Positions 32,358 through 63,560 of a stretch of 64,000 bases of DNA are shown piece after piece. The notes below the pieces were generated by a model that saw nothing but the letters and a program-made list of their open reading frames with translations, was not told the DNA's origin and did not search any database. The stretch is taken from contig NZ_CP134779.1 of assembly GCF_031884435.1 (NCBI RefSeq), positions 1,302,001 to 1,366,000 of the forward strand, given 5' to 3'. Position numbers and translations under genes: made by a program. This stretch comes from Bosea sp. 685 (GTDB taxonomy: Bacteria; Pseudomonadota; Alphaproteobacteria; Rhizobiales; Beijerinckiaceae). Position 1 is the first letter of the stretch, and every line of letters starts with the position of its first letter.

Positions 32358-32367
32358 GGCTCCACCT

Positions 32368-32498
32368 GTCATTCCGGGGCCGCGCGCAGCGCGGAACCCG
32401 GAACCCATGACTGGGCGTAGTGGATTGGATTGCGCATCGACAGAGGCTCACCCGGTCGTGGGTTCCGGGTTCGCGCCTTCGACGCGCCCCGGAATGAC
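32368..32498. repeat. long intergenic inverted repeat (family A, copy 2) between moaD and moaE
   Basis: GTCATTCCGGGGC (32368-32380) pairs with 32486-32498, and GAACCCGGAACCCA (32394-32407) with 32459-32472. The outer arm is the same as in the copy at 21668-21819. It interrupts the otherwise overlapping operon between the two molybdopterin synthase subunits. Confidence 0.85.
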
Positions 32499-32517
32499 AA
32501 TGGGGCGGCGCGCACCA

Positions 32518-33473: not shown

Positions 33474-35603
33474 TCAAGCATCATGAAAGAATTCATGCAC
33501 GGCCTTCGCGGTGGCGGCGTTGACGCCGGGGGTGCGCATCAGGTCGTCGAGCTTGGCGCGCTGGATCGCCTTCACCGTGCCGAAATGCAGCAAAAGCGCG
33601 CGTTTGCGCGAGGGGCCGATGCCGGGAATCTCGTCGAGCGGGTTCGTCATCGTGTCGCGCTTGCGCTTGGCCCTGTGGGTGCCGATGGCGAAACGGTGCG
33701 CCTCGTCGCGCAGCCGCTGGATGAAATAGAGCGCGGGATCGCGCGGCGGCAGCTTGAAGGGCTCGCGGCCGGCCATGAAGAAGGTCTCGCGCATGGCGTT
33801 GCGGTCGGCGCCCTTGGCGATGGCGACGAGCGGAATGTCGGTTGCGCCGAGCTCGGCCATGATTTTCCGCGCCGCTTCGAACTGCCCCTTGCCGCCGTCG
33901 ACGATGACGAGATCGGGGCGGGAGGGGAAGGCGATGTCGTCGGCCTCATCCTCCCGCGCCGCTTGTTGGGGCGCTTCCCTTCCCCCTTGTGGGGAAAGGA
34001 GAGGGATGGGGGGCGTACCGCTTGGTGAGCCCTCGCCAAGCGGTACGCCCTCCACCTCCAGCTCCTCCCCACCAGGGGGAGGAGAGTCGGTCGAGGTTGT
34101 CGGATTCGTACCCGCTTCCTTCGCCAACCGCGCGAACCGCCGCTGCAGCACCTCGCGCATCATGCCGAAATCGTCGCCCGCGATGGTGTCGGCCGAGATG
34201 TTGAAGGTGCGGTAATGGCTCTTCATGAAGCCGTCCTTGCCGGCGACGATCATGCCGCCGACCGCATTAGTGCCCATGATGTGCGAGTTGTCGTAGACCT
34301 CGACGCGGCGCGGGGGCTTCTCGATGCCGAAGGCGGCGCCCAGCGCCGCCAGCAGCGATTGCTGGCCGGCATTGTCGGCGAGCTTGCGGGAGAGCGCCTC
34401 GCGGGCATTCTTCTGGGCGTGGGCGACGAGATCGTATTTCTCGCCGCGCTTGGGTGCGGCGACCTCGACCTTGCGGTTGGCGCGGGTCGAGAGCGCCTGG
34501 GCGATCAGCTCGATCTCCTCGACAGGGTGGGAGAGCAGCACGAGGCGCGGCGGCGGCTTGTCGTCGTAGAACTGGCTGACCACGGAGGCCAGGACCTCCG
34601 CCGGGGTCAGGCTCTTGTCGGCGCGCGGAAACAGCGCCCGATTGCCCCAGTTCTGGTGGTTGCGGAAGAAGAAGATCTCGACGCAGAACTGCCCAGCCTG
34701 CTCGTCGATGGCGAAGACGTCCGCCTCTTCGACATCTTGCGTGTTGATGTCCTGCCCGGCCTGCACGGCCGAGAGCGCCGCGAGCCGGTCGCGATAGCGC
34801 GCCGCCTTCTCGAATTCGAGCTCCTCGGCAGCCTCCTGCATGCGGGCGGACAAGGTCTGCTTCACGGTCGATGAGCGCCCCGACAGGAAATCGCGGGCCT
34901 GGCTGGCGAGGCCCTGATAGTCGGGGATCGAGATCTCCCCAGTGCAGGGTCCGGAGCAGCGCTTGATCTGGAAAAGCAGGCAGGGTCGGGTGCGGTTCTC
35001 GTAGAATGAGTCGGTGCAGGAGCGCAGCAGGAAGGCTTTCTGGAGCGCATCGATGGTGCGCGTCACCGCCCAGACCGAGGCGAAGGGGCCGAAATAATCG
35101 CCCTTGCGCTGGCGCGAGCCGCGATGCTTGGCGATCTGCGGCGCCTCGTGGTCGCCGCTGAGCAGGATATAGGGGAACGACTTGTCGTCACGCAGCAGCA
35201 CATTGTAGCGCGGCCGCAATTGCTTGATCAGGTTGGATTCGAGCAGCAGTGCCTCGGCTTCGGTGCCGGTGGTGACGAACTCCATATTCGCCGTCTCGGC
35301 GATCATGCGCGCGACGGCGTTGGTGTGGGCCATGCCGCGGGCATAGGCCGTGACCCGGTTCTTCAGGTTCTTGGCCTTGCCGACATAGAGCACCTCGCCG
35401 GCACGATCGAACATGCGGTAGACGCCGGGCTTGCCCGGCAGATGCCTGGCGAAGCCGGCGATCACCTCGATGCCGTGCTTTAGCGCGCCGGGAGTTGCCT
35501 CTGTGAGATCAGCCGCAGGCGCGGGAAGCGGGAGGCTTTCCTCCTCATCCTCCATCTCGGCATCCGGCAGGTCGTCTGGACGTTCGCGATTCATGCCACG
35601 CAT
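33474..35603 (-). CDS. uvrC: excinuclease ABC subunit C with an inserted palindromic element
   Basis: Makes both incisions in nucleotide excision repair. 709 residues (alternative ATG at 35594), longer than the 610 of E. coli. An acidic N-terminal extension is followed by the GIY-YIG nuclease ([20 protein letters not shown]), the cysteine segment [12 protein letters not shown], a UVR helix pair, and the RNase H-like nuclease with [15 protein letters not shown] and [10 protein letters not shown]. The tandem helix-hairpin-helix is [20 protein letters not shown]. Between [12 protein letters not shown] and [11 protein letters not shown] there are about 45 proline/glycine-rich extra residues, encoded by a translated palindromic repeat. 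Confidence 0.95.
33973..34085. repeat. palindromic element (family C) translated inside uvrC
   Basis: Terminal hairpins CCTTCCCC...GGGGAAAGG (from 33979) and CTCCTCCCC...GGGGGAGGAG (to 34084) flank a central palindrome. Its 15-base perfect arms are 34011-34025 and 34036-34050. Architecture and terminal-hairpin sequence match the intergenic element at 56025-56195. It contains no stop codon in the uvrC frame. Confidence 0.85.
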
Positions 35604-56024: not shown

Positions 56025-56195
56025 CGCTCCCCTTCCCCCCCTGGCGGGGGAAGGTGGATCGGCGAAGCCGAGACGGATGAGGGGGCGCTGTGAGCTTTCC
56101 GCCTCAGCGTAACACGCCCCCAACCGGACAGGGCACGGCGCCCCCTCATCCGGCGCTGCGCGCCACCTTCTCCCGCCGGGGGAGAAGGGAAAGAG
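56025..56195. repeat. large palindromic element (family C) filling the gap before the winged-helix gene
   Basis: Terminal hairpin CCTTCCCCC.../...GGGGGAAGG (56031-56054) and its partner CTTCTCCCGCC/GGGGGAGAAG (56167-56187) flank inner arms GATGAGGGGGCGC and GCGCCCCCTCATC. This and its flanks account for most of the 314 bases between the GST and winged-helix genes. The same module is translated within uvrC. Confidence 0.85.
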
Positions 56196-59960: not shown

Positions 59961-62900
59961 ATGACGACGGGTCGCTGGGATTTCTGGATCGACCGTGGTG
60001 GCACCTTCACCGATGTGATCGGCCGCGATCCCTCAGGCAAACTTCACGCCAGGAAGCTGCTCTCGGAGAATCCGGGCGCCTATCGCGATGCGGCCGTGCA
60101 GGGCATCCGCGACCATCTCGGGCTGAAGACGGGAGAGCCGATCCCAGCCGGGCTGATCGACGAGGTGCGGATGGGCACCACGGTCGCCACCAACGCGCTG
60201 CTCGAGCGCAAGGGCGACCGCACGCTGCTGGTCATCACCAAGGGTTTCCGCGATGCCCTGCGCATCGGCTACCAGGCGCGGCCCGACATCTTCGCCAAGG
60301 AGATCGTCAAGCCCGAGCAGCTCTATGACGCCGTGGCCGAGATCGACGAGCGCGTGCTGGCCGATGGCGAAGTCGAGCGCGCGCCCGACGAGGCCGCGAT
60401 CCGCGCTGCGCTTCAGGCGCAGTTCGATGCCGGCTTCCGCGCCGTCGCGATCGTCTTCATGCACGCCTATCGCTATCCCGCTCATGAGCAGGTCGCGGCC
60501 CGCATCGCCCGCGAGATCGGCTTTCCGCAGGTTTCGGTGAGCCATGAGGTCTCGCCGCTGATCAAGCTGGTCGGGCGCGGCGATACGGCGGTGGTTGACG
60601 CCTATCTCTCGCCGATCCTGGGCCGCTATGTCGCGCAGGTCTCGGAGGAACTCGACATCGCCCGCACCGGCGCGCGCTTGATGTTCATGATGTCCTCGGG
60701 CGGCCTGACTGCCGCGGAGCTGTTCCAGGGCAAGGACGCGATCCTCTCCGGCCCGGCCGGCGGCGTCGTCGGCCTTGCCGAGACCGGCCGCTCGGCCGGC
60801 TTCGACAAGGTCATCGGCTTCGACATGGGCGGCACCTCGACCGACGTCGCCCATTTCGACGGCGAGTATGAGCGCGCCTTCGAGACCGAGGTCGCCGGCG
60901 TGCGCATGCGCGCACCGATGATGCTGATCCACACGGTCGCGGCCGGCGGCGGCTCGATCCTGCATTATGACGGCGCGCGTTTCCGTGTCGGGCCCGATTC
61001 CGCCGGCGCCAATCCGGGGCCGGCCGCCTATCGCCGTGGCGGGCCGCTCGCGGTGACCGATGCGAACGTCATGGTCGGCAAGCTGATCCCGGCCTATTTC
61101 CCGCCGATCTTCGGCGAGAAGCGCGATCAGCCGCTCGATGTCGAGACCGTCAAGACGAAGTTCGCGGCGCTCGCGGCCGAGGTCGGCGATGGGCGCAGTC
61201 CTGAGGAGGTCGCTGACGGCTTCATCCAGATCGCGGTCGCCAACATGGCTGAGGCGATCAAGAAGATCTCGGTCCAGCGCGGCTACGACATCACCCGCTA
61301 TGCGCTGAACTCCTTCGGTGGCGCCGGCGGGCAGCACGCCTGCCTGGTGGCCGATGCGCTCGGCATCAAGACCGTGCTGCTGCATCCGTTCTCCGGCCTG
61401 CTCTCGGCTTATGGCATGGGGCTCGCCGAAATCCGCTCGACCCGGACCGCGGCGCTCGATGTGCCGCTCGACGATGGGGCGAAGGCTGCCATCGCAGGCG
61501 TTGCCGACAAGCTCGCGGCCGAGACCCGCTCCGAACTGACGGGGCAGGGCGTGCCGACTGAGGCGATCGCCATCCATACCAGAGCCCATATCCGCTATGC
61601 CGGCACCGACACCGCGATTGCCGTCGCGGCCGGCACCCGCGCCGAGATGAGGCAAGCCTTCCAGCTCGCGCATAAGGCGCGCTTCGGTTTCATGGACGAA
61701 ACCAAGGCGCTGGTCGTCGAGGCGGTCGAGGTCGAGGCCGTCGGCGGCGGGGCGAAGTTCGAGGAGGCGTCGGCGCCCGAGAGCGCCGGCGAGCCGGCAG
61801 CAGCCGAGCGAACCCGCCTCTTTTCGAAGGGGCAGTGGCATGAGGCGGCAATCGTGCGCCGCGAGGCGATGTCTCCCGGTCAGCAGATCGCGGGGCCGGC
61901 CATCATCATCGAGCCCAACCAGACCGTCGTGGTCGAGGAGGGCTGGTCGGCCAAGCTCACGGCCAAGGACCATCTCGTGCTGGTGCGCTCGAAGGCGCTG
62001 GTCCAGAACGCCGCGATCGGCACCAAGGCCGATCCGGTGATGCTGGAGATCTTCAACAACCTGTTCATGTCGATCGCCGAGCAGATGGGCGTGACGCTGC
62101 AGAACACGGCCTATTCCGTGAACATCAAGGAGCGGCTCGACTTCTCCTGCGCCGTCTTCGACACCACGGCCTCTCTCGTCGCCAACGCGCCTCACATGCC
62201 GGTGCATCTGGGCTCGATGGACAAGTCGGTCGAGACCGTCATCAAGAACAATCCGGTGATCAAGCCGGGCGATGTCTACTGCCTGAACGCGCCCTATAAC
62301 GGCGGCACGCATCTGCCCGATATCACCGTCTGCACGCCGGTCTTCGACGAGGCGGAGAAGGAGATCCTGTTCTGGGTGGCGAGCCGCGGCCATCATGCCG
62401 ATGTCGGCGGCGTGGCGCCTGGCTCGATGTCGCCGCTGGCGACGCATATCGAGGAGGAGGGCGTCTATATCGACAATTTCAAGATCGTCGATCAGGGCCG
62501 TTTCTGCGAGGATGATCTCGTCAAGCTCCTGACCGGCGCACGCTACCCCGTCCGCAACGTCGTCCAGAACGTCAACGACCTGAAGGCTCAGATCGCCGCC
62601 AATGAGAAGGGCGTGGCCGAGCTCAGGAAGATGATCGCCTCCTTCGGGCTCGAGGTGGTCCAGGCCTATATGGGCCATGTCCAGGACAATGCGGCCGAGA
62701 GCGTGGCGCGGCTTTTGACCAAGCTCCACGACGCCGAGTTCACCTATCCGATGGACCAGGGTTGCGCGATCAAGGTCAAGGTCACGATCGATCGCGAAAA
62801 GCGCGAGGCGACGGTCGATTTCACCGGCACTTCGGGGCAGCGTGGCGACAATTTCAACGCGCCGGCCCCGGTGACGCGCGCCGCCGTGCTCTATGTCTTC

Positions 62901-63560
62901 CGCGTCATGGTCGATGATGCGATCCCGATGAATGCCGGCTGCCTCAGGCCGATCAGGATCATCATCCCGGAGGGGTCGATGCTCTCGCCACGCTATCCGG
63001 CCGCCGTGGTGGCGGGCAATGTCGAGGTCAGCCAGGCGGTGACGAACACGCTGTTCGGGGCGCTGGAGGCGATGTCGGCCTCGCAGGGCACGATGAACAA
63101 CCTCACCTTCGGCAATGACGAGTACCAGTATTACGAGACGATCTGCTCGGGCTCGCCTGCGGGGCCTGGCTTCAACGGCACCTCGGGCGTGCATGTCCAC
63201 ATGACGAACTCGCGCCTGACCGATCCGGAAATCCTGGAGACGCGTTTCCCGGTCGTGCTGGAGGATTTCCACATCCGGGCCGGCTCCGGCGGCAAGGGGC
63301 AGTGGAGCGCCGGCGACGGCACCAGCCGCACCATCCGTTTCCGCAAGACCATGGACTGCGCCATCCTCGCCTCGCATCGCAAGGTCCGCCCCTTCGGCGT
63401 GAAAGGCGGCGAGGCCGGGCAATTGGGCAAGACAACGGTGCGCAGGCTGTCCGGCGTGGTCGAGGAGCTGAAGCCCTCCGATCAGACGCTGCTGCAGGCC
63501 GGCGAGGCGGTGACGGTGATCACGCCGACGGCCGGGGGATATGGCAAGCCGAAGGGATGA
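59961..63560 (+). CDS. fused hydantoinase A/B, 5-oxoprolinase-type
   Basis: 1199 residues from [28 protein letters not shown] precedes the ATG, and the frame from 59880 is rejected as it covers the operator. The HyuA half (about 1-690) has ATPase-like motifs [33 protein letters not shown] and [20 protein letters not shown]. The HyuB half (about 694-1199) starts [20 protein letters not shown] and has [14 protein letters not shown] and [20 protein letters not shown]. Fused forms include ATP-dependent 5-oxoprolinases, which open pyroglutamate to glutamate; N-methylhydantoinases and related carboxylases are alternatives. The divergent TRAP transporter supports a small imported substrate. Confidence 0.93.

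Follow-up and report, generated by a model that had tools for sequence, protein, structure and literature searches.

The uvrC gene of Bosea sp. 685 is crossed by a palindromic repeat without a break in its reading frame, and in other Bosea species the same loop of UvrC is filled by repeats of other families, by a piece resembling the end of a tRNA gene, or by a linker with no recognised repeat. We consider it probable that mobile repeats have been tolerated on hitting a permissive, disordered loop of the protein. The DNA analysed here (the window) is a stretch of 64,000 nucleotides from contig NZ_CP134779.1, and the window's own Bosea carries the genome label G000. The features referred to below are as follows, with positions counted from the first letter of the window.

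33474–35603, minus strand: uvrC, excinuclease subunit of 709 aa, frame unbroken across the element
33939–34109, minus strand: the entire hypervariable uvrC linker, approximately residues 499–555
33974–34085, minus strand: family-a palindromic element in uvrC, approximately residues 506–544, with further full copies in the genome
33976–34000, unstranded: terminal hairpin 1, arms 33976–33985 and 33991–34000 (90%)
34011–34025, unstranded: left arm (15 nt) of the central perfect inverted repeat
34036–34050, unstranded: right arm (15 nt) of the central perfect inverted repeat
34062–34084, unstranded: terminal hairpin 2, arms 34062–34070 and 34076–34084 (100%)
56025–56195, unstranded: family-e intergenic palindromic repeat; a similar element, judged by eye, lies in frame in uvrC of genome G009
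60648–60689, plus strand: empty site in a HyuAB-like gene (called at 59961–63557, plus strand), filled in genomes G027 and G032

The palindromic element within uvrC

The gene was identified as uvrC by a full-length curated model (TIGR00194, 529 bits against a cut-off of 285) and by nuclease-domain matches; the Pfam domain UvrC_RNaseH_dom spans residues 424–640 with the insert included, and D569 and H636 are unchanged in all 30 aligned sequences. A reading made from the sequence alone (hereafter the sequence-only reading) had described the frame as traversing an element with two terminal hairpins and a central inverted repeat with perfect 15-base arms, which we confirmed at 33974–34085. In broad agreement with that reading, the insert adds about 40 residues (506–544) in the loop shortly before the conserved PDLVIVDGG motif, which starts at residue 563. 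The overall palindrome has 54-nt arms (33976–34029 and 34032–34085) that are 76% complementary and separated by a 2-nt spacer. The minimum free energy of the element as RNA was −86.1 kcal/mol (z −7.2), the fold as DNA had a z of −6.2, and in both cases none of 200 shuffles equalled it. Furthermore, the inverted repeat of the window linker was matched by none of 60 codon shuffles. Two remarks of the sequence-only reading did not hold. The stop-free frame had been offered as an explanation for survival of the insert, but five of the six reading frames of this copy are open and the frame is not special. Calling uvrC essential was too strong; it is a repair gene, and we know of no demonstration that it is essential for growth.

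In the AlphaFold model (30 sequences, mean pLDDT 76.9), residues 500–554 of UvrC have pLDDT below 50 and lie between a helix (478–498) and a strand (565–569). The loop at this place measures 2–8 residues in solved UvrC domains and approximately 64–70 in the window UvrC, and the predicted nuclease fold is not visibly disturbed by the added dozens of residues. In 17 sequence pairs, one of which has no core value, linker dN/dS was 0.18–0.93 against 0.02–0.17 for the core. The low pLDDT and the relaxed linker dN/dS suit a tolerated, disordered linker. In other Hyphomicrobiales and relatives, 35 linkers were read from 69 loci (34 loci were unmatched by the motif), and by our own motif measure the loop already had 25–53 residues in 31 of the 35. 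The inverted repeat was equalled by at least 2 of 60 codon shuffles in each of 33 of these linkers. The other two were a strongly palindromic linker in a Methylocystis uvrC (L079; score 27, z 15.5 against codon shuffles) and a weaker one in a Xanthobacter uvrC (L094; z 4.4).

Linker types and repeat families across Bosea

All but one of the 67 Bosea genomes had UvrC. For 64 of them, BLAST clusters and reading of the peptides gave a linker label, with seven sequence types in total. Family a or its variants occupied 16 of the labelled linkers, family b (the CCTCATCCTGAGGAG... type) 21, b together with an element d three, c three, e one, and f, the CGTC-tagged type, two, with the CGTC ends visible in uvrC of G046. 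Eight of the remaining linkers resembled the terminal (3') part of a tRNA-Met gene, and ten had no recognised repeat. Because a, c and d have a common hairpin style, we counted at least five unrelated kinds. The labels are weak for G035 (tRNA type), G037 (f) and the decayed b linkers of G005, G007, G024, G036 and G056. Unlabelled genomes were G021 and G064, owing to contig ends, and G033, where there was no match; the G021 uvrC frame does hold a family-a peptide. Among the 120 database UvrC matches listed, a motif rule assigned 57 to a, 30 to b, one to b with d and ten to the tRNA type, with 21 other and one unread; by eye, several of the 21 are a, d, decayed b or tRNA type, and a few pairs among those listed represent a single protein with two starts. 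A search with the insert region against proteins of similar length, of limited sensitivity, gave matches in 8 of 59 candidates, all of them UvrC.

The linker was open in frame in 62 of the 64 genomes read, the exceptions being G019 and G066, which are frameshifted within it. An inverted repeat beating all 60 codon shuffles was found in 25 of the 62 open linkers, while the 37 that do not beat them are decayed or of other types. In uvrC of G003, G014 and G019 (L159, L161 and L164), element d comes immediately after the initial half of element b, which looks like the entry of one repeat into another within the gene.

The repeat families recur elsewhere in the genomes. A search of G000 with the window element detected three other clear copies of family a, namely at the C-terminal end of CobN, in a HyuA-like protein and between liv transport genes, and both CobN and HyuA hold the element in frame. 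In G027, 39 places besides uvrC matched family a, a census that counts partial matches too; 36 were intergenic and three lay in called genes (HyuAB, the DNA ligase described below, and the C-terminal end of a small ORF with a match of 38 nt). Genes were called with a codon-usage script trained on seven ORFs of the window, which recovered HyuAB, the ligase, CobN and HyuA including their inserts, as well as the xanthine-dehydrogenase-like gene of G032. Altogether, 36 of 40 sampled family-a copies were intergenic, as were all 36 family-b copies sampled among the matches listed for G000, where none lay within a called gene; depending on the frame, 1 to 27 of these 36 were open. Coding copies are exceptions: none of the 36 listed family-b copies of G000 lies within a called gene, yet 21 labelled species have family b in frame in uvrC (24 counting those with b and d, one of which is frameshifted). 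Family b had at least 53–80 matches per genome in five genomes, with both strands counted and 40 of 89–180 candidates scored. Element d had 11 additional near-full copies and one partial copy in G003, element c two additional near-full copies in G012, and family f occurred at over 20 places in G003 and at roughly ten in G046; e-like copies elsewhere were seen by eye in L030 and L031.

The sequence-only reading had seen the same architecture in the intergenic repeat at 56025–56195 and had treated it as kin of the element in uvrC. Its architecture is indeed similar, but only approximately 31–34 bases match, and we rejected the placement of the two in one family. Another palindromic repeat of the window, GTCATTCCGGGG...CCCCGGAATGAC at 32366–32505, lies between two small genes and has related copies in many other Bosea loci examined.

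The linker differs sharply between some close species. For G000 (family a), G051 (family b) and G006 (tRNA type), the flanks are 93–99% identical and the linkers 51–58% in the three pairings. Between G000 and G051, identity is 95–98% per 150-base block on both sides and 56% in the linker; the corresponding values are 93–97% and 51% for G000 and G006, and 93–98% and 53% for G023 and G022. For G000 and G063, both with family a, the linkers are 90% identical. When the linker labels were placed on a UvrC-core tree with 32 of its 70 inner branches well supported, they required 27 changes compared with 34–41 for shuffled labels (30 draws). The types therefore partly track ancestry yet change often, by what may be new insertion, loss or allele exchange, and the 27 changes could be partly due to homologous exchange. 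The family-a copies in uvrC are 85–91% alike in pairs among G000, G020, G027 and G015, which may point to an old insertion common to several species and not a fresh jump in G000. All family-a copies in uvrC may even descend from one insertion. On the other hand, two family-a copies outside uvrC in G027 are 89% and 86% like its uvrC copy, and because they are equally close, the latter may also have arisen locally. Since the family-a copies may share one origin, it is the different families, and not family a alone, that argue for repeated insertion.

In the tRNA type, seen in eight labelled genomes, 27–31 nt of the UvrC linker resemble the 3'-terminal part of a tRNA-Met gene, two of the eight being diverged (L035, L153, L165, L152, L053, L151, L061 and L171, with the tRNA gene in L212). 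In some linkers the stretch runs through the terminal CCA, and its in-frame reading is VGGSSPSPAT or similar. The tRNA-Met gene was identified by ARAGORN in G000 and by eye in six other genomes. A 27-nt pattern allowing up to two mismatches matched twice in six of ten genomes (the tRNA gene and uvrC) and once in four. The type is not present in high copy number, and in G065 and G035 its uvrC piece shows further divergence. Such a stretch could have been left behind by an integrating element or copied from a tRNA end.

Filled and empty sites in other genes

Clean empty sites were found in relatives for two further hosts, HyuAB and a DNA ligase. In HyuAB (1266 aa), the family-a element occurred only in G027 and G032 among the 64 genomes that could be judged, the gene pieces of G021, G033 and G043 being on separate contigs or missing. 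Of 31 DNA sites tried, two were filled and 11 empty, the filled ones being longer by 132 nt; the other 18 were missed by the motif, and their match rows have the same break. Comparison of filled and empty sites by eye revealed no evident target-site duplication, but the flanks differ by several codons.

The ligase is a second host from the DNA damage response, a cisplatin damage response ATP-dependent DNA ligase (TIGR04120, 820.7 bits against a cut-off of 400). Its loop following YDYVGDLSETVALMWP was short or empty in 11 of the 21 sequences read and held family a in six (G027, G039, G032, G023, G002 and, frameshifted, G066). A remnant was present in G053, other linkers in G034 and G010, and in G028 a quite different repeat that is present also in other loci examined. 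Furthermore, a xanthine-dehydrogenase-like ORF of 1568 residues in G032 (L180) carries two in-frame family-a palindromes, near residues 217–250 and 1005–1047 as numbered in the stretch read. A FemAB-like gene of G026 has a family-a copy near its N-terminus, with the called start falling inside the element, and its status as a host is uncertain.

These sites back the proposal of the sequence-only reading that a mobile-looking repeat entered uvrC in frame, which also agrees with the presence of the family elsewhere in the genome and with relatives that lack the element or carry another repeat. Close relatives do not all carry the same residues without a palindrome, the pattern that would have spoken against entry.

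Explanations for the filled loop and known repeat systems

In the explanation we favour, the elements would be small, non-autonomous, REP-dimer-like palindromic repeats, with two inverted hairpin units flanking a variable centre, that spread through Bosea genomes chiefly between genes. Copies arriving in coding DNA would be lost except where they left the frame intact and struck a tolerant loop. That of UvrC, which connects the long helix (478–498) to the PDLVIVDGG strand, would be very tolerant and would have been filled repeatedly by differing repeats, with later decay, nesting and perhaps exchange between species. The insert would be translated into a Pro/Gly-rich, disordered linker under little sequence constraint, with the nuclease domain folding around it. 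The sequences and models themselves show the element and its open frame, the repeat family, the alternative fillings, the empty sites of HyuAB and the ligase, the predicted disorder and the relaxed linker dN/dS; transposition, translation and neutrality of the insert are what we infer. No transposase is linked to family a, which, with the lack of an evident target-site duplication at HyuAB, counts against a mobile repeat. The interrupted uvrC genes of G019, G066 and G049 weigh on the same side, as does the minority of open linkers (25 of 62) whose inverted repeat beats all 60 codon shuffles. Two RAYT-like Y1 transposase genes lie approximately 3 kb apart in G000 (L029, G000:C2:4057000-4063000); within 6 kb around these two Y1_Tnp genes there was no family-a copy, and they were rejected as its neighbours. 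Family a shares with REPIN/RAYT systems the two inverted hairpin units flanking a spacer and differs from them in this absence.

Coding palindromes and REPs in repair genes are already known, and the kind of phenomenon is not new. The Rickettsia palindromic elements (RPE) and their Wolbachia counterparts (WPE) are palindromes of approximately 100–150 bp, lying in frame in unrelated protein genes and tolerated there (PMC10969869, PMC2229807). Family a is likewise a multi-copy palindrome in frame inside unrelated genes. It differs in its Bosea host, apparently in its sequence (as judged without RPE sequences alongside) and in that most sampled copies are intergenic; in Bosea, moreover, one loop of one gene houses many unrelated repeats across species. 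The GTAG/CGTC REPs form hairpins and inverted dimers that are mostly intergenic and sometimes coding (Di Nocera et al. 2013, PMC3733652, main text). Family a is also an inverted dimer of two hairpin units, but the unpaired GTAG or CGTC tag at the end of a unit is absent by eye in 12 full G027 copies and in the window copy. According to the same main text, REP host genes include uvrA, uvrB and DNA ligase, and its Discussion mentions UvrABCD; uvrC and Bosea are absent from it as words. Its authors speculated there that REPs in uvr/rec genes might create mutators, and the text contains a single roughly common REP site, in recB of two Xanthomonas, compared with at least five kinds at the uvrC site of Bosea. 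ERIC/RU and other MITE-like repeats are short, non-autonomous and fused in frame to genes (PMC2229807, main text), and in-frame palindromes occur as fusions in enterobacteria (PMC2229807, PMC10969869, main texts). The Bosea elements are likewise short in-frame repeats, with no terminal TA or target duplication demonstrated.

The sequence-only reading had known of no description of this family in proteins of Rhizobiales. Among the titles and abstracts of open papers listed, we found none on palindromes in Bosea uvrC, nor did we find a description of one loop of one gene collecting many unrelated repeats across a genus; the statement needs the caveat that a 2013 paper had already placed REPs within uvr genes of other bacteria (PMC3733652). 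With Bosea, coding palindromes are now seen in a genus of which dozens of species have been sequenced, and in which a single gene occurs side by side in filled, empty and otherwise filled form. Such alleles offer natural material for two long-standing questions: how repeats turn into protein sequence, and whether those in repair genes have been tolerated by accident or alter the mutation rate.

UvrC and the ligase, the two hosts filled in several species, both belong to the DNA damage response, something that tolerance by itself would not lead one to expect. The inserts might instead be kept since a modified UvrC and a modified cisplatin-response ligase usefully shift the mutation rate. The occurrence of family a in the ligase of six genomes, with another repeat in that of G028, would fit, as would the uvrA, uvrB, further repair genes and DNA ligase named as REP hosts elsewhere (PMC3733652, main text). 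However, the remaining hosts (HyuAB, HyuA, CobN and the xanthine-dehydrogenase-like gene) are metabolic, the linker sequence is weakly constrained and ten of the 64 labelled genomes do without a recognised repeat, so that we consider a benefit of this kind unlikely. An element acting as nucleic acid, with a strong hairpin in uvrC mRNA or DNA tuning expression, would account for the RNA fold, but structure is not conserved in the 37 open linkers that fail to beat all codon shuffles (e.g., G006, G018 and G029), and the window had no Rfam match at gathering score; such a role is highly improbable. Hardly credible is a history free of insertion, in which an ordinary Pro/Gly-rich linker drifted and looks palindromic by composition. 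The composition and the already variable linkers of other genera would permit it, but none of the 200 shuffles folds equally well and the multi-copy families elsewhere in the genomes contradict it.

The finding of at least five unrelated kinds at a single site could also mean that the loop is a targeted insertion hotspot, whose DNA draws elements beyond what protein tolerance explains. Unrelated families, the tRNA 3' end included, would then require a common target, and by eye neither a common target sequence nor a duplication was seen; we regard this as very improbable. Another reading, to which we give little credence, treats the UvrC linker and the ligase loop as recurrent docking sites that take up and exchange unrelated repeats (for uvrC, a tRNA 3' end as well), and whose G/C runs would make the two genes frameshift-prone and their repair state switchable. 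It draws on three observations: in G066, uvrC (L169) and the ligase (L367) are both frameshifted inside the family-a element, with C5 in each where G039 has C6; uvrC of G019 is frameshifted; and the G002 linker (L037) has a C10 run within the reading frame. Against it, homopolymer runs average 5.3 in the linker and 4.9 elsewhere in uvrC (64 genomes), only slightly longer, and a homopolymer sequencing error is a simpler reading of the double frameshift in G066 than real slippage. Outside the linker, no uvrC stretch read in the 64 genomes has a run longer than 7. One further frameshift, in uvrC of G049 (L177), lies outside the linker, near residues 281–290.
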